In this document: in pieces, positions 14,925-35,940 of the stretch
Position numbering within the stretch: position 1 is the stretch's first letter
How the letters are laid out: the number at the start of each line of letters is the position of its first letter
From: Streptomyces sp. NBC_01707
Lineage (GTDB): Bacteria; Actinomycetota; Actinomycetes; Streptomycetales; Streptomycetaceae
NCBI RefSeq assembly: GCF_041438805.1
Contig: NZ_CP109191.1
Coordinates: forward strand, 124,001-188,000
Reading direction: 5' to 3'
Length of the DNA stretch: 64,000 nucleotides
Position numbers and translations under genes: made by a program
The notes under the pieces: model-generated
Databases searched by the model: none
What the model saw: only the letters and a program-made list of their open reading frames with translations
Told to the model about the DNA's origin: nothing

Positions 14925-15620
14925 TCAGCCGAGTCGAATAGCTTGTCCGGCTGCGGCGCGTAGGAGCGCATGCGGGCACGGCTGCGTCGCCGGTCGGCCG
15001 CAGGTCAGACGGCAGACCATGACGCCGATCATCGCCCAGCGGATCACGGTCTCGGACAGGGCCGGAATGGTCTCGTAGTCCCGGGCGAGGCGGCGGTGGG
15101 CGGTGAGCCAAGAGAAGGCGCGCTCGATCGCCCACCGCTTGGGTTGGACCTGGAAGCCGCGCCGGCCCGGGTCTTTACGGACCATATCCAGCTCGCGGCC
15201 GAGGATCTGAGCGGGCCAATCGACCAGGCGGCCCGCGAACCCTGGTCCGCACAGATCTTCTTCACACCCGGGTGGTCGAGGCGGGTCCACAGCAGCGGAC
15301 GCCTGGCGCCGTCGCGGTCCTGGATGTTCGCGGCGACGACGTGGACGGCCAGGAGCAGGCCGAGGGCATCGGTGACGATGAACAGCTTGCGGCCCTTGAC
15401 CTTCTTGCCCGCATCGAAGCCTCTGGTAGCAGCCGGGGCGGAGCCGGCAGTGCGCACGGACTGAGAGTCGATCAGTCCGGCACTCGGTTCAGGGTTGCGT
15501 CCGTCGGCCTCGCGGACCCGATCACGCAGTGCGTCGTGGACGCGCTCGACGGTGCCGTCATCGTGCCACCAGGTTAAGTACCAGTAGACCGTGGGCCAGG
15601 GCGGGAAGCAGCCCACGGCT
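14925..15620 (-). pseudogene. IS5-family transposase, frameshifted and lacking its N-terminus
   Basis: Reading from 15620 downwards: FPPWPTVYWYLTWWHDDGTV, then LIDSQSVR (first Asp), DALGLLLAVHVVAANIQDRDG and CADQG in one frame; after a shift near 15230, FAGRLVDWPAQ and WAIERAFSWLTAHRRL (Glu) in another. These are the standard blocks of the IS5 (ISL2/IS1031-like) transposases. The N-terminal DUF4096 domain is absent: homology stops at about 15610 where a different, hairpin-rich sequence begins. Inactive. Confidence 0.75.
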
Positions 15621-28120: not shown

Positions 28121-28199
28121 TCAGTCGGCCAGGTGGCGATGCCCTCATCACCACCTGCAGCACGCTGCCAGAACAAGCAGGTCGGAGTCCAACCTGGGA

Positions 28200-28396
28200 T
28201 CAGGGCTCCGAGATGGCCCGCCATTACGAACTCGCGTCCTGCTTCACCGACGGCATCGTCTTCGTATACCGCGCCGTGGTTCGGGGTCTCGAAGCCTGCG
28301 GCCGACCGCATCCTCGACCACCTTGCACCGCTGCTGGTCATCTCGCCTGCGCGCCAGCCGCGCAGGGACACCGTCGATATCGTCGACGGCGCTTTG
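28200..28396 (+). pseudogene. Left half of an IS5-type transposase gene split by the Tn7-like element
   Basis: The frame WFGVSKPAADRILDHLAPLL then RRDTVDIVDGAL aligns with FGVSKSTADRIIDHLGPML and KDTVLIVDGTL of the intact transposase at 52718-53509. It stops exactly where the Tn7-like end begins. The right half resumes at 35765. This copy was already the target when the larger element inserted. Confidence 0.75.
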
Positions 28397-28445
28397 CGTG
28401 ACTGACACTTTTGGTTGGCGGACGAGCACCCTAGTTGGCGGATCT
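28397..28445 (+). repeat. Left end of the Tn7-like element with two TnsB-site-like repeats
   Basis: The terminal CGTGACTGACAC is followed by GGTTGGCGGA (28413-28422) and AGTTGGCGGA (28433-28442), spaced exactly 20 bases. Matching repeats at the right end are on the opposite strand: TCCGCCAAAC (35744-35753), TTCCACCAATA (34826-34836, degenerate) and CCCGCCAACC (34803-34812). Such arrays are TnsB binding sites in the family. Confidence 0.65.
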
Positions 28446-28451
28446 TGATCC

Positions 28452-28466
28452 CGACACGCCGTGTCG
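28452..28466. promoter_or_regulatory. Palindrome in the tnsA upstream region
   Basis: CGACACG-C-CGTGTCG is a perfect inverted repeat with 7-bp arms, located between the left-end repeats and tnsA. It is a plausible operator or an additional end-binding site; no regulator gene is adjacent. Confidence 0.4.
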
Positions 28467-28522
28467 CGATCAGTTCAGGAGAATGGTCTCCATCACCGGC
28501 CGGGGGGTGCTGCTGTGAGTGA

Positions 28523-29344
28523 GTGAGAGAGACAGCGAGCGCGAAGATCCCGTCGGATTCAAGTCATCTGGATCAGATTGTGACGGCGTACGACGGGGAT
28601 GCCGCGTTCCGGGATCTGTTGCAGCTCGGGAACGGCTGGGCTGGTCGGTGGAGTTCGACTTGGCAGGTGGCTGCCGGCAAGGTCTGCTGGCCGATCCGGG
28701 ATATGGCTCACGTATCGGTGCTGACGTCCCGGCCGATGCGGGGGTTCACGTGGCGAGCGAAGCAGCGGCATCGCCCCGGGCTTGAGGTGATGGCTTCAAC
28801 GGGCAGGGCACACGGCTTCGAGTCGCTGGAAGAAATGCGGCTGCTGGTCGCGCTGGACTTTCTGGGTGCATCAGAGGTGCTGTCGCAGCCGTTCCGGCTG
28901 GACTTCGACCATGCGGGCGGGCAGTCCTGGCACATCCCGGACTTCCTGGCCGTGATCGGCGGCGGGATGTGGCTGCTGGATGTCCGCCCGATGGAGCTGG
29001 TCAAGGGCGCGGACGCGCTGAAGTTCGCGGCGGCCAGGGAGGTGGCGGCGGCGTGCGGCTGGCGGTACTCGGTGGTCGCAGGCTGGCGCCCGCATGTCTG
29101 GAGCGTCCTTGATCACTTGTCCTCGCGTCGGCGGCCGGTGAGGGACCTGCTGGGCATGCGGCATCAGTTGCTCACTGCTGTCGGCGGCACGGAGGACCGG
29201 GTGATGACGTTTTCCGCATTGGCTGATGCGACCAGCGTGCCTTCCGTTGGCCGGGCCAACATTGTGCGGCTGCTATGGCAACGTGAGCTCGGCATCGATC
29301 TGGGCAGTCCCTTGCGCGACACCTCGCTGGTCTGGCAGGTGTGA
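28523..29344 (+). CDS. tnsA: TnsA-like heteromeric transposase endonuclease subunit
   Basis: A 273-residue protein. It would cut the 5' strands at the transposon ends so that the element moves by cut-and-paste. The TnsA_N nuclease region is GFESLEEMRLLVALDFLGAS (residues 99-117, Glu100/Glu104), SQPFRLDF, WHIPDFLAV (Asp140) and LLDVRPMEL (Asp153, Arg155). The last motif has Arg where Tn7 TnsA has its active-site Lys; I recall DVRP in other Streptomyces members, so this may be a family trait. The start is uncertain: GTG 28523 is the first in frame and a later GTG precedes TAYDGD. It overlaps tnsB by a TGATG. Confidence 0.8.
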   Translation: MRETASAKIPSDSSHLDQIVTAYDGDAAFRDLLQLGNGWAGRWSSTWQVAAGKVCWPIRDMAHVSVLTSRPMRGFTWRAKQRHRPGLEVMASTGRAHGFESLEEMRLLVALDFLGASEVLSQPFRLDFDHAGGQSWHIPDFLAVIGGGMWLLDVRPMELVKGADALKFAAAREVAAACGWRYSVVAGWRPHVWSVLDHLSSRRRPVRDLLGMRHQLLTAVGGTEDRVMTFSALADATSVPSVGRANIVRLLWQRELGIDLGSPLRDTSLVWQV

Positions 29345-31632
29345 TGACGGTGAGGGGGTTCTTGCAGATCGCGCCGGGCAGGCGGGTCGCGCTCAACGGA
29401 GTCGAGTGGACGGTCGAAGATGTCCACGGCCAGCTCGGCCGGCTCGTCCTTGTGGATGCCGACGGCCGCGCGGAGGCCCGCTCGTTCCGCTGGCTCATCA
29501 ACCATGCCGATCTGCGGCTTTTGCCGACGGTCGAAGCATCGGGGTGCCCTTCGCCGGTCTCCCGACAGCCAAGGACGCTGGCTGACCTGACTGAGGACCA
29601 ATTGGAACGGGCCAGGCTGCGGGCTGCGCATGTGTTGGAAGCCGAGACGGGGTTCCGGGAGGGTCAATCGGCTCGGGCCCTGCCGGGTGAGCCCCGGCTG
29701 GCCTACGACCCGGACCGCACGACGCTGACCCAGCGCCGCCACGCGAAGGCGGCGGAGACGAAGGCGATGCCCCGTCCGGAGGCGGTCCGGCTCGGCTTGC
29801 AACACCTCAGCTACCGGACCCTGGAGCGTCTGTCGGGACTCTCGGGCGAGAGTCTCTTGGTGGCCTGCGCGGACGGGCGCTGGACACGGCGACGCAGTGG
29901 GCATCGCAGCGTCACTGAGGAGGTCCGTGAGGCGATCTTCGCGGTCAAGGGCGAGTGCGGTGAACGCGCCCGCCTGAGTTTGGCCGCCAGGCACCGATTG
30001 ATGCACCAGTACATTCGCGAGCGGTTCCCGACGTTTCCGGCCGAGAGGATCCCTTCCCGCTGGACGCTCGCGGACGTCTGGGAGGAGTGGTTCGGGCCTG
30101 GCGGCGCCCGGCCGCGCTACGAGCGGACGGCCCGGGCCGCTGCAGAGGCCGGTGTCTCCGGCCGGATGGTGGTCCACCGGCCGGGCCAGGTTCTGGCGTT
30201 GGACTCGACCCCGATGCCGGTGAAGCTGCGCGAGACCGTGTTCGGCGACGCGGTCACCGCGACACTGACCCTTGCGCTCGATCTCTACACGCACGGACTG
30301 CCGGCCTTCCGACTCACGTTGCAGTCCGACACGTCGGTCGACGTCGCGATGCTGCTGCGGGACGTGATGCTGCCGCTTCCGATGCGGGACGGCTGGGGCG
30401 AGGATATGGAATGGCCCTACGCCGGGGTCCCGGCCGACGTGATTGCCGAGTTCACCGGGCACCGGGTCGCCGCTCTGCCATTCTTCGCACCGGAGACGGT
30501 CACCACCGACCACGGCAGCCCCTACAAGAACCACGACCTGGTGGAAGCCGAACGGGAGATCGGCTGCCGGATCCTGCCTGCTCGCGTCCTGCGGCAGACC
30601 GACAAGTTCGCGGTCGAGCGCCAGTTCTTAACCATCCAGACCATGCTCTTCGAGCATCTGTTGGGCTTCACCGGCGGCGATGTCGCCGACCGCGGGGCTG
30701 ACCCGGAACGCGATGCGAGTCTCACGCTCGCGCAGGTCGAGCACATCATCGCGACGTGGATCGTCCAGATCTGGCAGAACCGCAAACTGGGCGAATACGC
30801 CCCAAGCTGGGCTCCAGGTGAGGATCACAGCCCCAACACTTTGTTCGCAGCGGCGATGGAACAGGGCGGCTTCGACCTGGACTTCCCCGAGCCGGGCTTC
30901 TATTACAAGGTCTTGCGCAAGCACCACGTGAAGATCCATCCCCGACGTGGAGTGAAGATCCTCGGGCTTTGGTATCACCACCCGATCCTCGACGAGCCGC
31001 ACTTCCTGCAGCCCTCCGCCCGAGGGGGCAAGCACGCGGGCAAGTGGGTGGTCCGCAGTGACCGAAGGGACCGCCGGCAGGTGTTCTTCCAGGACCCGGC
31101 CGACCACGAGACCTGGCACATCCTGCGCTGGCGAGGGTTGCCGTCCGAGGGCGAAGTCCCCGCTTTCTCGGACAGGACCGCCGACGCTCTCCTGGCACAC
31201 GTGAAGGCGAACAACATCAGGATCCACTCCGAGAGCGAGCTCTTGGAACATCTGCTGGAGATTCTCGGCTCGGTCACTCCGGTCGACCAATGGCTCAGCC
31301 AGGCCAAGAAGAAGGCCGGGAAGAAGCAGCGCGTCGCCCAGGCCCGCGATATCACTCGTGCACAGGCTGCGGCAGCTGACCGCCCCACCGCACCGGCCCC
31401 TGCAGACGAGCCGGCTCCGGCCGAGATGCCCGCGGTCTGGGCAGAGCATGGTCGCACGATCGACCGCGCGGTCGACACCGACCGTCGCCGGCGACGCGAA
31501 GAAGCACTTGCGGGAACCAGACCTGTCGCCCCGCCGACGCTGCGCGAGGGCTTGAGCCGACGGCCCATGTTCCTGCCGCCGCCCCACGATGGGTCGGAAG
31601 CCGACACAAGAGTCCAGGAGGACGACGAGTGA
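29344..31632 (+). CDS. tnsB: TnsB/Mu-type DDE transposase
   Basis: A 762-residue transposase catalysing 3'-end cleavage and strand transfer. An N-terminal helical DNA-binding region is followed by the rve integrase core: Asp287 in LALDSTPMPV, Asp389 in TTDHGSPYKN and Glu425 in DKFAVERQFLTIQ. The Mu C-terminal beta barrel (about residues 520-600, GVKILGLWYHHPIL) and a charged tail for TnsC contact follow. All three catalytic residues are present, so it should be active. ATG 29344 overlaps the tnsA stop; the preceding GTG 29341 is also in frame. The stop overlaps the tnsC GTG. Confidence 0.92.
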   Translation: MTVRGFLQIAPGRRVALNGVEWTVEDVHGQLGRLVLVDADGRAEARSFRWLINHADLRLLPTVEASGCPSPVSRQPRTLADLTEDQLERARLRAAHVLEAETGFREGQSARALPGEPRLAYDPDRTTLTQRRHAKAAETKAMPRPEAVRLGLQHLSYRTLERLSGLSGESLLVACADGRWTRRRSGHRSVTEEVREAIFAVKGECGERARLSLAARHRLMHQYIRERFPTFPAERIPSRWTLADVWEEWFGPGGARPRYERTARAAAEAGVSGRMVVHRPGQVLALDSTPMPVKLRETVFGDAVTATLTLALDLYTHGLPAFRLTLQSDTSVDVAMLLRDVMLPLPMRDGWGEDMEWPYAGVPADVIAEFTGHRVAALPFFAPETVTTDHGSPYKNHDLVEAEREIGCRILPARVLRQTDKFAVERQFLTIQTMLFEHLLGFTGGDVADRGADPERDASLTLAQVEHIIATWIVQIWQNRKLGEYAPSWAPGEDHSPNTLFAAAMEQGGFDLDFPEPGFYYKVLRKHHVKIHPRRGVKILGLWYHHPILDEPHFLQPSARGGKHAGKWVVRSDRRDRRQVFFQDPADHETWHILRWRGLPSEGEVPAFSDRTADALLAHVKANNIRIHSESELLEHLLEILGSVTPVDQWLSQAKKKAGKKQRVAQARDITRAQAAAADRPTAPAPADEPAPAEMPAVWAEHGRTIDRAVDTDRRRRREEALAGTRPVAPPTLREGLSRRPMFLPPPHDGSEADTRVQEDDE

Positions 31633-32909
31633 ACCGAGCCCTCTCGCACGATGATCCGCTGGAGGGCCTGCCCTCACGAGCCGGAATCGCCGAGTTGATC
31701 CTGGGCGGCCACCCGCCCCGCGACACCTACGTCGGTTGGCAGCACTACCGCAGCCACTACGGCCTGCTCGCCCCCGCTCCGGTGATCTCCCTTAAGCAGA
31801 TGCCGATGATCCCCGCGAGCCGCAAGGCCGACTACGACCTCTATCGGCATCTGACGAACGCGAACCTCCCGCTGCAAGACACCCCCATGCATGACAAGGT
31901 CGGCAAGCTGATTCGGCGCCGGTTGCGCGGCAACACAATGAAGCAGGACGATCCGACGCGCGCTGGCGTCATGGTCAGCGGCTGGGGCAACTATGGCAAG
32001 ACCGCGTCCGTCTGCTCAGCCGGGGCTGTATTCGAAGACCAGTGGCTGCAACTGCACAGCTACCTCAACCCTGGGGCTCTGCCGGGTACGCGTGATCTCC
32101 ACGCGCCGGTCGTCTATGTCTCGACCCCGGTGACAGCGACCCCAAAGAGCCTTTGCGTGTCGATCCTGGGCTTCTTTCGGGCCGCGATCCGCAAGTCGAT
32201 CACGCTGCCGGAACTGGTACGGCAGGTCGCCGACTCCCTCCACGACCACGGTGTCAAAGCGCTGATCCTGGACGACATCAGTCGGCTGCGGATGCACCGG
32301 GCAGACGACCAGGACGTTCTCGACCTGATGCGGGCCTTCATGAACCTGGACGTCACCCTGATTCTTACAGGCGTCAACATCTCGGGCATCGGACTGTTGC
32401 GCGAGGCCAAGTGGAACAAGAAGACCCGGCAGTGGGAGATGCCACCGCTGGAGTCGACCCGCATCCACGGCTTGGAGATCACTCAAACCGAGCACCGCTT
32501 CGAGCTCATCGAGCTCGACCGCTTCCGCTACACCACCCCGAAGCAGATCCATGCCTTCGTCGACCACCTGGAGGGAATCGAGCGGCACCTCCGGCTACTG
32601 AATGCGAAGGAGGGCATGCTCACCGGCAGCACGATGCCGGAGTACTTGATGCGCCGCACCGGCGGTGTCGTCGGCCTGCTGGGACGTCTGATCGAGGACG
32701 GCGCACAGGAGGCTATGGAGTCCGGGAAAGAGCTGATCGACGAGACCCTGCTGGACGAGATCGTGCTCCGGCGGGACAAGCCCGAGCAGCCGCCGGACGA
32801 GCCCGTGATCCCGGCCGACCCGCCGACCACCAGCGAGAACCCGAGAGCGAAACGGCCCCGGAACACCGTTTTCGATGACCAAGGCCCGGCTGCACGCTCG
32901 GGCGCCTGA
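31629..32909 (+). CDS. tnsC: TnsC-type AAA+ ATPase
   Basis: A 426-residue regulator that assembles on target DNA and activates the transposase. Walker A is GWGNYGKT at residues 118-125; Walker B is ALILDDIS with Asp215/Asp216; the sensor-1 segment is VTLILTGVNISG. The N-terminal 60 residues (DTYVGWQHYRSHYG) are the part that contacts TniQ or TnsA in relatives. GTG 31629 has AGGAGG 8 bases upstream and overlaps the tnsB stop (GTGA). It is longer than TniB of Tn5053 and comparable to TnsC of small Tn7-like elements. Confidence 0.88.
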   Translation: MNRALSHDDPLEGLPSRAGIAELILGGHPPRDTYVGWQHYRSHYGLLAPAPVISLKQMPMIPASRKADYDLYRHLTNANLPLQDTPMHDKVGKLIRRRLRGNTMKQDDPTRAGVMVSGWGNYGKTASVCSAGAVFEDQWLQLHSYLNPGALPGTRDLHAPVVYVSTPVTATPKSLCVSILGFFRAAIRKSITLPELVRQVADSLHDHGVKALILDDISRLRMHRADDQDVLDLMRAFMNLDVTLILTGVNISGIGLLREAKWNKKTRQWEMPPLESTRIHGLEITQTEHRFELIELDRFRYTTPKQIHAFVDHLEGIERHLRLLNAKEGMLTGSTMPEYLMRRTGGVVGLLGRLIEDGAQEAMESGKELIDETLLDEIVLRRDKPEQPPDEPVIPADPPTTSENPRAKRPRNTVFDDQGPAARSGA

Positions 32910-32924
32910 ACAAATGGAGCCCTG

Positions 32925-34802
32925 ATGCATCCACTGCCCCGGAGTCTCGAACCCATGTCAGGAGAATCCCTGGTCAGCTACCTGCTTCGGCTTGGGCACC
33001 GTCTCAGCCTCCCACCCCTGCACCTGATCCGTGCGGCAGGCTGGACCGAGCGCGTATACGCTCACCACCTCCCCGGCGGTCTGCTGCTGGATCTCACGGG
33101 GCCGCAGGCCGAAGCATTCGCCCGGCTGACGAGGCAAACGGCCGAGGAAGTCTCGGCACTGACGCTGACGCAGTGGCGAGACCGATATCCGCCGATCGCC
33201 CGGTCCATGCCCGGGTCGGGACACAAGAGGCCAGACGCATGGCTCTTCGTCGGCTCGCCACGGTTCTGCCCCTCCTGCTTGGCGGGCGACGGCACCCCGG
33301 CCCAGCAACTCCATGGCGGACCCTGGCAAAAACTCTGGCACCTTCCCGTTGCCTTCGCCTGTGTCGAGCATCAGACCTATCTGGAATCCGACTGCCCGTA
33401 CTGCGGCCAGCCGCACGCCACATCAGGACGCCTGATTGAGCGGGCCAACGACCACACCCTGCACCCAGCGCAATGCCGATGGACGATCGACACTCAGACC
33501 CAGGAGCGGACCCGTGCCTGCGGCGGCAGACTCGATCAGCGTGCTGCCCCGCCTCCCGGCGGCCGGCCGCAACCGACAGCGGACATCCTTCGCTTCCAGG
33601 AATCCCTCCTTGCACGCCTGAAGTCGCCGATTCTGGCCACCGACGCAGCCGAGTACTTCACCGATCTCCGGCTGGCCACCGCGCTGATCAGCAGTACATG
33701 GCCGCAAGGGGAGCACCTTCTCAACACTGCCCTGGCCGAGCACGTGACCACTCATCTCCACTCCGACTCAGAGCGTTCGGACACCAGCAACGGTCGTCTT
33801 CAGTACTCGCGCCTGCGCGATGCACCGCCCCGTGACCCTGTCGCCTGCGCTGGACTCCTGCACGCAGCTCACTCCATGCTCGAAGCGGGCGATCTATCCG
33901 AGTGCCTTTCCCGGTTCATCCACGCCTTCAGCAAGCGGCCAACCCGCACACCCTGGGTCCGCTTCTTCGCCGGCTATGAGCACTCTTGCTCGCGACGATT
34001 CCGAAACGCGGCCGAACCCTTGACCCACGCCTTCCGTAAGATCGGCGGCCCCCAGGGAACCCGAGCGCCTCTGCGGAACGACTACCGGCCCGAGCACATT
34101 CCGGCATATTTGGAGCCGGACTGGTACGAACGTCATTTCGCACCCATTGTCGGAATTGCGCCGAAGGTATTGCGGCGAACTGCCGCAGTCCGGCTCGTTC
34201 AGTGGGCCATTGGCGGCCCCCTCGGTGATGCTGCGGCTTACCTCGGCATCACCCCCGACCGGATGCAATTCAGAGCCAACACCGACTACCAGCGCTGGGA
34301 ACGCGCGGGACGTGACCCGGCGGAGTTCGAATCGGTCCTCCGCGAGCTCAGCGCCGAACTCCGGACACCATGCCGGCCCCTTGTCGACTACCAGCGCAGA
34401 CGTGAGGCGCTCCGGGACTGGGCTCTGCCCCCTGACACATGGGATGCCCTGGTCAGCGAGTTGCCGCACATTCCCGGCCCCATCCGACCAGCAGTCGGCG
34501 ACCGCAAACGTCAGGACGCCTCCGTCTTCATCTGGGTGCAGGTCACACGAGGCGAGCACCTCTTCGCCCCGCGCCCCATTGAGGCCGAGCAGCCTCAGCA
34601 TATCCAGCGCGAATGGGCCCAGCGCCGGAACATCACCTGGCACCATCTCGTCCGGCCCAATCCGCTAAGACACTACGCCGACCTGCGGAAACTCCTCACT
34701 GAATACGCCTACCAGCTCGCCCGGGACATCGACTCGAGTGCCGGGCAGATCTCAACTGTCAACGGCCCGACACTCACGCACAGTGAACACCCATGGTTCT
34801 GA
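32925..34802 (+). CDS. tniQ: TniQ family target-site protein
   Basis: A 625-residue protein. The N-terminal TniQ domain shows PLPRSLEPMSGESLVSYLLR and a zinc-ribbon with FCPSCLAG, FACVEHQ and SDCPYCGQ (Cys/His ligands). The long C-terminal part has a helical DNA-binding region (AAYLGITPDRMQF, HTH-like). The size resembles TnsD, which recognises a specific DNA site, more than the short TniQ of Cas-associated elements. ATG 32925 follows GGAGCCC. The gene ends only about 100 bases (IS removed) from the right terminus, so it is the last gene of the element. Confidence 0.88.
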   Translation: MHPLPRSLEPMSGESLVSYLLRLGHRLSLPPLHLIRAAGWTERVYAHHLPGGLLLDLTGPQAEAFARLTRQTAEEVSALTLTQWRDRYPPIARSMPGSGHKRPDAWLFVGSPRFCPSCLAGDGTPAQQLHGGPWQKLWHLPVAFACVEHQTYLESDCPYCGQPHATSGRLIERANDHTLHPAQCRWTIDTQTQERTRACGGRLDQRAAPPPGGRPQPTADILRFQESLLARLKSPILATDAAEYFTDLRLATALISSTWPQGEHLLNTALAEHVTTHLHSDSERSDTSNGRLQYSRLRDAPPRDPVACAGLLHAAHSMLEAGDLSECLSRFIHAFSKRPTRTPWVRFFAGYEHSCSRRFRNAAEPLTHAFRKIGGPQGTRAPLRNDYRPEHIPAYLEPDWYERHFAPIVGIAPKVLRRTAAVRLVQWAIGGPLGDAAAYLGITPDRMQFRANTDYQRWERAGRDPAEFESVLRELSAELRTPCRPLVDYQRRREALRDWALPPDTWDALVSELPHIPGPIRPAVGDRKRQDASVFIWVQVTRGEHLFAPRPIEAEQPQHIQREWAQRRNITWHHLVRPNPLRHYADLRKLLTEYAYQLARDIDSSAGQISTVNGPTLTHSEHPWF

Positions 34803-34836
34803 CCCGCCAACCAGCGCCCTCAAGTTTCCACCAATA
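34803..34836 (-). repeat. Inner part of the Tn7-like right end
   Basis: CCCGCCAACC directly after the tniQ stop and TTCCACCAATA before the IS are the inner right-end repeats. The outer part of the end, with TCCGCCAAAC and the terminal TCGGTCACA, continues at 35698-35764 beyond the inserted IS. Confidence 0.6.
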
Positions 34837-35697
34837 ACCGTGTCCTATGTGGTGAGGCGAATGAGCCGTTTGTAGCAGCAGAGGGCTGCGGCGAGGCCGA
34901 GAAATGCCAGGTAGTTGCGGGGGTGGCGTTCGTAGCGGTGGTTGAGCCGGCGGTGGCCGGTCAGCCAGGACATGGTCCGCTCGATGACCCATCGTCGGCG
35001 CCCTAACCGTTCGCTGGACTCGACTCCCTTGCGTGCGATACGAACACCGATGTGCTTGCCCCACAACCATTTTCGCAGGTGGGGGATGTCGTAGGCCTTG
35101 TCTGCGTGGAGACGTTCGGGTTTGAAGTACCGGCCGCGGTGAGGGTCGTGTCTCGTTTGGTGACCCTGGATCATGGGCTTGAGGGCGAGTCTGTCGTGGG
35201 TGTTGGCTGCCGAGAGGCCGACGACGGGCAGTCCGTTCGCGTCCGACAGGACGTGCATCTTGGAACCCGGCTTACCCCGGTCCACGGGGCTCGGACCTGT
35301 GAGTTCGCCCCCTTTTTCGCCCTTACGTGGGCGGAGTCGAGGACAGCTCGGGAGAGATCGAGCAAGCCGGCGTCGTCCAGGCGGTGCAGGATCTCCTCGT
35401 GCAGCCGGCCCCACACACCTGCCCGCGACCAGATCAGGAACCGACGATGTACGGTCGACTTCGATATCCCGAAGCACGGCGGCAAAGCCCGCCAGGCACA
35501 TCCACTGACCAGCCCATAGACGATCGGCGCGAACAGCGTCTCATCAGGCGTGTCCTGCGTCCCGCCGCCCTGCGGCCGCACCCTCGACGGCGGGATCCGC
35601 GGTTCCGCGATCTCCCACAGCCCATCCGGAACAATCCAACTCCACGTACCCCGCCCCATAACCAACCCCAACGACCCAACCCCACATAGGACACGGT
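34837..35697 (-). mobile_element. IS5-family element with 16-bp terminal inverted repeats
   Basis: ACCGTGTCCTATGTGG at 34837-34852 is perfectly inverted at 35682-35697. The transposase (minus strand, about 35671 to 34845) is in two frames: the first ends after VLDSAHVRAKKGA (first Asp), and a -1 slip on the A-rich/G-rich run (AAAAAGGGGG, about 35304-35316) gives EKGGELTGPSPVDRG. The second frame has LHADKAYDIPHLR (Asp) and WVIERTMSWL (Glu). It seems intact and is probably the youngest insertion here. It sits inside the right end of the Tn7-like element, and could interfere with end recognition. Confidence 0.88.
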
Positions 35698-35764
35698 CTA
35701 AGGGCCCACAACACGCCCCTGACCTCCAGAGTCCAGATCGTGTTCCGCCAAACTCTCGGTCACA
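35698..35764 (-). repeat. Outer part of the Tn7-like right end
   Basis: Reverse complement begins TGTGACCGAGAGTTTGGCGG, matching the left end in the TGAC-GA terminus and the GTTTGGCGGA repeat. It is directly followed by the resumed IS5-type transposase gene. Confidence 0.65.
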
Positions 35765-35940
35765 CCCTGGAGCCCATCCGCGACCGCAGCATCGCGACCT
35801 CGAGCAAGACCTACCGCTACTCGACCAACCTGAAGGTGGTCATCGATGCGAACAGCCACCTGGGCGTGGCGACCGGCGTGCCGCTGCCCAGCAGCCGCAA
35901 CGAATGCCGCGCGTCCACGGAGTCACATGCATGGGTGCAT
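35765..35940 (+). pseudogene. Right half of the split IS5-type transposase gene
   Basis: TLEPIRDRSIATSSKTYRYS, then TNLKVVIDANSHLGV and PLPSSRNECRA, align with TLVPTRDHTVAEQSKNYRYS and PLPGNRNDCKA of the copy at 52718-53509. It continues exactly where the left half at 28396 stops. The C-terminal third, with the second Asp and the Glu, is missing. Confidence 0.75.

Follow-up and report, generated by a model that had tools for sequence, protein, structure and literature searches.

A Four-Gene Tn7-Like Element Within an IS5-Like Gene

The DNA analyzed here is a 64-kb window of Streptomyces sp. NBC_01707 (C2:124001-188000 of host genome G000), which at 28397-35764 carries a Tn7-like transposon with four genes on the forward strand. 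These are tnsA (28523..29344, 273 aa), tnsB for a DDE transposase (29341..31632, 763 aa), tnsC for an AAA+ regulator (31629..32909, 426 aa), and tniQ for a large TnsD-like target selector (32925..34802, 625 aa), which comparison with relatives assigns to an argC type. An earlier interpretation based on the letters and open reading frames (ORFs) of the window, hereafter the sequence-only reading, had proposed this TnsA-TnsB-TnsC-TniQ composition, and the protein comparisons bear it out. TnsA matches the actinobacterial TnsA-like model NF033179 with 111.8 bits (cut-off 110) and is 77-86% identical to its counterparts in the 13 close relatives measured. TnsB gave no Pfam or NCBIfam match at E 0.001; a profile built from six relatives recognizes TnsB chains of known structure (E 2e-7), and the acidic triad D288, D390, and E426 is conserved among relatives. 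TnsC matches PF05621 (TniB) and PF13401 (AAA) with conserved Walker A/B motifs, and TniQ matches PF06527 over residues 5-153; a profile of 52 TniQs, compared with solved structures, gave no match by sequence at E 0.01. A TnsA-type endonuclease thus stands beside a DDE TnsB, an AAA+ TnsC, and a TniQ-domain protein, as expected of a Tn7-like element. At the active-site position, all 17 aligned TnsA sequences (window and relatives) read D-V-R; Tn7 TnsA has Q-V-K (Gln-Val-Lys) at the corresponding position, and D-V-R might possibly represent an unusual catalytic centre.

The four genes had been described as one overlapping operon, which is accurate for tnsA/tnsB and tnsB/tnsC (4-bp overlaps) and not for tniQ, which starts after a 15-bp gap without overlap. 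The ORF list of 28397-35764 shows no further gene-sized ORF beyond the four genes and a later insertion sequence (IS), in line with the claimed absence of cargo, and holds no candidate for a resolvase, Cas genes, or a CRISPR array (ORF list only; neither resolvase nor Cas models were run). The claim that there is no second tniQ likewise stood, as the host genome has a single TniQ of this kind. The lack of cargo is no special trait of this copy: L057, L066, and L070 (relatives are cited by locus handles) are also ~6.5 kb long, with little room beyond four genes.

The tnsA-proximal end (28397..28522, forward; 126 bp), aligned with six relatives, contains two TTGGCGG boxes resembling TnsB sites. 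The tniQ-side end, also forward, consists of an inner part (34803..34836), aligned with L066, L035, L058, and L055, and an outer part (35698..35764), defined by arm alignment, in which the outer TnsB-type box is shortened. Between them, on the reverse strand, lies the later IS5-family insertion (~34837..35697; NF033580, 112.8 bits, cut-off 110), whose limits were taken by eye from its inverted repeats. Repeated TnsB-type boxes at the ends, identified by alignment and putatively bound by TnsB, together with a 5-bp duplication, are a further Tn7-like feature. Both arms align with relatives and the target rebuilds in register, which upholds the proposed boundaries and the recurrence of the ends.

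The insertion splits an IS5-like (IS1373-type) transposase gene into a left half (28133..28396, forward; only ~28277-28396 matches in frame) and a right half (35765..35940, forward; from joined-flank DNA and protein alignments). Joined minus one 5-bp copy, the flanks restore the empty site and match an IS5-like copy next to L065 on both sides of the junction in one alignment (71% over 160 nt, four gap positions, none of them at the join), with a second block further left keeping register; in a control that kept the extra 5 bp, no alignment spanned the junction. The translation of the joined halves aligns in one piece (79% over 91 residues) with transposases annotated as IS1373 (IS5-like), as the sequence-only reading had anticipated. 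Two points are weaker: the joined translation has no Pfam match, and the copy beside L065 reaches 25.8 bits with its IS5 model, below the cut-off of 140. Judged by these alignments, the insertion in the window is real.

The proposed 5-bp target duplication proved imperfect in the window itself, where the unstranded left copy CTTTG (28392..28396) and right copy CCCTG (35765..35769) agree at 3/5 bases, and held among the relatives. Both ends could be placed in 12 elements that carry tns genes or remnants of them, and in eight of these the duplication is exact, namely L033 with L049 (CCGGC), L046 (GTGGC), L057 (CGTGT), L058 (GAACT), L066 (GCCTG), L070 (ACGCC), L163 (ACGGC), and L166 (ACTGC); of the other four, one is the window element, L035 has GGGTG plus an additional base, and L055 and L056 show no duplication. 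The outer sequence of the relatives reads TG[TC]GAC...AGTTGGC; the left end in the window reads CGTGAC, with its first base changed, and its outer right TnsB-type box is ~5 bp short. The element can therefore not be called complete in the sense of functionally intact, since damage affects the right arm as well as both ends. Given the altered left base, the short right box, the IS in the arm, and the imperfect duplication, the window copy is probably old and perhaps immobile.

Relatives Recur at a Fixed Point Upstream of argC

Relatives were drawn from three sources: named genomes (16 loci), a plasmid collection (two with TnsB >85%), and a genus search that added more; a scan of viral contigs found none. 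The census comprises 19 distinct elements with near-identical TnsB, counting the window element and merging duplicates, with L070 (76%) and L072 (56%) left out. Ten of these lie upstream of argC (L031, L032, L033, L034, L035, L037, L059, L066, L067, and L069), two upstream of tap (L055 and L058), one upstream of a dnaE-type gene for the DNA polymerase III alpha subunit (L056), and one was not placed (L071/L038). The remaining five lie elsewhere: the window element occupies its IS5-like gene, L061 follows an EamA transporter ORF by 17 bp, L065 precedes a doxX gene by 153 bp, L073 abuts a marR reading frame, and L064, whose left end was not placed, has no argC box in its 22 kb. Among the argC elements, L059 has no tniQ match and tniQ of L037 is cut by a contig end. 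L087 and L090 (TnsB 86% and 91%) are also at argC and stand outside the count of 19, having been found through the argC pattern.

The identity of ArgC was established on the host's own gene (TIGR01850, 398 bits), and the assignment is supported by a conserved box in front of argC, CATGACTATACG...TTTATGCA, which we take to be the ArgR operator. In all 11 elements measured (ten of the clade and L036), a spacing of 28-31 bp separates this box from the transposon end farther out; the spacing was measured to the box and not to the start codon, the latter being wrong for L033 and doubtful for L037, L059, and L067. A filled-site pattern (TGYGAC 24-34 bp past the box) occurred at 34 places in 33 of 392 Streptomyces genomes, and the reversed-pattern control returned 0. 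Of 30 argC loci fetched, 23 read TGYGACNGAG and 26 either TGYGACNGAG or a TGGC-type box; TnsA or TnsB was found within the ~3 kb examined at 11 of the 30. By position, then, the relatives at argC behave as homing elements and the window copy itself does not.

The host's own argC site is empty, and G000 has no match to the filled-site pattern. When sites were scored for similarity to the argC site, those of the window element, L061, L064 (flank placed by guess), and L065 reached 15.3-17.8, close to the null mean of 16.6 and attained by a share of 0.22-0.80 of the null, against 129.3 for the host's own argC. Hence, the split gene provides no target rule, since ten of the 19 elements lie at argC and the IS5 site resembles the argC site no better than random DNA. 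The target rule, which the sequence-only reading had left open, has been answered in part, through the argC site revealed by comparing relatives.

Probable Exchange of tniQ Between Elements With Nearly Constant TnsABC

The identity table covers 17 elements, 14 of them close relatives, among which TnsB is 87-99% and TniQ 29-99% identical. For 15 elements, the maximum-likelihood trees of TnsABC and of TniQ are mutually incompatible in approximately unbiased (AU) tests (p 7.6e-18 and 9.2e-10); L067 stood outside the trees, and its TnsC in the identity table is a shortened frame. The same incongruence is visible in individual elements: TniQ identity is 91% between L065 and L034 and 54% between L034 and L031, whose TnsC proteins are 96% identical. 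TniQ of L055 and L058 groups with that of L070, yet their TnsB is far closer to argC elements (87-91%) than to L070 (77-78%). Ten pairs were compared along the operon DNA. Four of them lose identity at the tnsC/tniQ border (L031/L034, L033/L066, L066/L034, and window/L058) and two inside tniQ (window/L033 and, more weakly, L033/L064); the other four show no clear break (L065/L034, window/L061, L055/L058, and L058/L070).

The incongruence could also have arisen if tniQ were not exchanged and selection for new targets had simply driven it to evolve far more quickly than tnsABC, TniQ being the presumed target-contacting protein. The graded TniQ identities to the window (79, 65, 59, 56, 48, and 41%) and the four pairs without a clear break are compatible with such a course; the uneven fall of identity at the gene border or inside tniQ in the other six pairs, the crossed similarities of L065, L034, and L031 and of L055, L058, and L070, and the AU rejection of a common tree make it unlikely. 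Selector exchange with a nearly constant transposase is a general finding of the clade and larger than the window.

The TniQ sequences also point to a candidate target-reading segment. Of the argC elements, the three most distant keep residues 541-625 better than any other TniQ segment (L035 67%, L066 73%, and L036 58%, with 21-58% in their other segments), which is not so in L031, L033, and L034. Because they are kept in distant argC elements and are 17-19% identical in L055, L057, L058, and L070, these residues may help to read argC. The window TniQ has kept this segment, at 72-79% identity to L061, L031, L032, L067, and L069.

Probable Homing, Off-Site Insertion, and Possible Retargeting

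Taken together, we consider it probable that the window element belongs to a Tn7-like family whose members home by means of a large TnsD-like TniQ and trade the gene for it among themselves, and that it is itself an argC-type element that jumped off-site. Following the roles of their families, TnsA and TnsB would cut and join the ends and TnsC would couple them to the target, with the site picked by the one large TnsD-like TniQ. The window TniQ is of the type whose elements sit at a fixed place upstream of argC; an element of this type would have jumped into the IS5-like gene on a probable linear plasmid, and the copy would afterward have been struck by another IS and decayed. Within the family, tniQ would have been swapped between elements keeping nearly the same TnsABC, and some differing TniQ types sit upstream of differing genes. 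The anatomy, the empty site, the recurrence at argC, and the discord between TniQ and TnsABC are observed directly; we infer the binding of the site by TniQ, the change of target upon exchange, the direction of exchange, and the insertion of the window copy by its own transposase from these comparisons.

The distance upstream of tap is 114 bp in L055 and 99 bp in L058 (NF047542, >1100 bits each) and 123 bp in L147, in which only a TnsA remnant was found. L057 precedes tpg (NF047541) by 74 bp, and the distant element L160 precedes an annotated dnaE by 120 bp; L056 lies 121 bp upstream of the start codon of a broken polymerase gene, the start being placed by eye; L070, again by eye, is 74 bp upstream of another gene start. 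A broader proposal, which we put forward tentatively and as a serious possibility rather than a probable one, is that one TnsABC machine is naturally retargeted by a single-gene swap, typically to a point just upstream of a conserved gene start: the argC-type TniQ would direct it to the chromosomal argC promoter, the tap-type to the telomere-protein operon of linear replicons, and hence to plasmids able to spread it, and others to tpg or dnaE.

Several observations weigh against the main reading given above. The argC site is shared by elements whose TniQ identity falls as low as 40%; therefore, exchange is not always target-changing. The tap link rests on only two clade elements: the expectation that tap-type TniQs accompany tap sites, checked on L055, L058, L163, and L164, held in the first two and failed in L163, a deletion derivative in Streptomyces clavuligerus that is not at tap. 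The tpg case, L057, lies outside the clade (TnsB 62%), and the dnaE case, L056, has lost tniQ and depends on a gene start placed by eye. Off-site elements are not rare, five of the 19 being at neither argC nor tap/dnaE, which, together with L163, means that specificity is loose or that TniQ is not the sole determinant. Finally, the duplication flanking the window copy agrees at only three of five bases.

The off-site position of the window copy might instead reflect a newly gained specificity, with its TniQ actively targeting IS5-like transposase genes. The insertion does fall at a conserved transposase motif (VDG/ALEP), and the closest TniQ to that of the window, from L061 (81%), is likewise not at argC. 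L061, however, is not in an IS5 but behind its transporter ORF, over its C-terminal 85 residues the window TniQ agrees at 75-79% with the argC elements L031, L032, L067, and L069, and insertion into an IS5 gene is known from one case, recurrence at such genes not having been searched for; we regard this explanation as improbable. Still less credible is the idea that argC was occupied only a few times, long ago, and that these insertions were then passed down or carried along with that part of the chromosome, without repeated homing: equal spacing at all argC insertions would fit it, and the close set L031, L032, L067, and L069 may share one insertion, but the distant L044 sits at argC in mirrored orientation, L036 and L044 use the same place with TnsB only 53-54% identical, the site is filled in so few of the genomes searched, and the duplications at argC differ (CCGGC, GCCTG, and GGGTG), the last being a weak point because flanks differ between species.

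Host Replicon and Derivative Elements

The carrier of the element, contig C2 of G000, is 312,363 bp long and has identical 8,828-bp inverted repeats near both ends; it is therefore most likely a linear plasmid of ~312 kb. A broken tap lies on this plasmid, with N- and C-terminal pieces ~38 kb apart (C2:77556-77852 and C2:115000-119000, L155) and a tpg match adjoining the C-terminal piece; the chromosome of G000 has two tap genes above the family cut-off.

Several shortened or composite elements were also encountered. At argC of another genome, a 1.3-kb element with both ends (L140:7268-8585) matched no tns query and is flanked by ACGGG/ACGGA (4/5); it is probably a non-autonomous copy at the recurrent site. 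In L163:10081-12826, which has both ends and the duplication ACGGC, tnsA runs straight into the C-terminal portion of a tniQ of the tap type; this is an internal deletion derivative on the megaplasmid pSCL4. L055 and L058 each contain additional DNA ahead of tnsA, inward of the left end, at roughly matching positions (L055:6123-11100 and L058:8392-9100), possibly a nested insertion or left-arm cargo. At L046 (~15198-15222), the right end of one element and the left end of another are separated by only 5 bp (GTGGC), which also follow the far end of the second element, such that two Tn7-like elements stand side by side.

Miniature elements were found as well. One of 222 bp, bounded by the same kind of TGTGACCGAG ends, is present in three copies in G000, at C1:5758889-5759110 (L136), C2:5120-5341 (L134), and C2:307081-307302 (L135); the two C2 copies are mirror copies in the plasmid inverted repeats, and the chromosomal one has an exact 5-bp duplication, GCCGC. 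It has possibly been mobilised by a related TnsABC. Another, of ~225 bp with both ends and the duplication TCTGT, lies on an S. chartreusis plasmid (L162:5676-5900), just upstream of a further Tn7-like left end.

Relation to Known Systems and Significance

Tn7 proper encodes TnsABCDE and inserts at attTn7 downstream of glmS through the TnsD pathway. The present family resembles it in the TnsA, TnsB, and TnsC core, the 5-bp duplication, the large TniQ-domain selector, and the tnsA-proximal end facing a fixed chromosomal site. It differs from Tn7 in that the recurrent site of the relatives is upstream of argC and not downstream of glmS, and in that TnsB is unmatched by Pfam and NCBIfam and TniQ is without a solved sequence relative at the threshold given above. 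The window element, moreover, holds only four genes and an IS between two IS5 halves, with no TnsE seen (neither glmS nor TnsE was sought by model). Transposons of the Tn5053/Tn402 type (TniABQR) lack TnsA and carry a resolvase; here TnsA is present and no resolvase candidate was seen among the ORFs. CRISPR-associated transposons differ in turn, as no gene-sized ORF was seen here beyond the four genes and the later IS (from the ORF list, with no Cas model run).

In the parts of the source consulted, the Actinobacteria-dominated clade 2 of Tn7-like transposons shares its host group and core genes with the window element and is described as having no experimentally characterised member (Benler et al. 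2021, PMC8649781); the window family probably belongs to that clade, and a text search of the article returned neither argC nor Streptomyces. The sections consulted of Faure et al. (2023, PMC10293859) treat target selectors as modules, describe a single large TniQ/TnsD, and favour in-place duplication as the origin of two-selector (TniQ-TnsD) loci, with few cases fitting tniQ/tnsD exchange between transposons; in contrast with what those sections describe, the exchange observed here occurs among single-tniQ close relatives. Within the open-access library searched, none of the titles or abstract openings retrieved described these argC, tap, or tpg insertion sites.

The comparison gives one actinobacterial Tn7-like family a testable target rule, a fixed point upstream of argC, and adds candidate sites at tap and tpg, genes that mark linear replicons. 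Pairs of elements differing mainly in tniQ amount to natural swap experiments on which part of a TnsD-like protein reads DNA. If exchange of tniQ changes the target, such elements could be engineered into tools for site-specific insertion in Streptomyces, and if retargeting by tniQ swap is true, the family would constitute a natural, protein-guided, and modular insertion platform.

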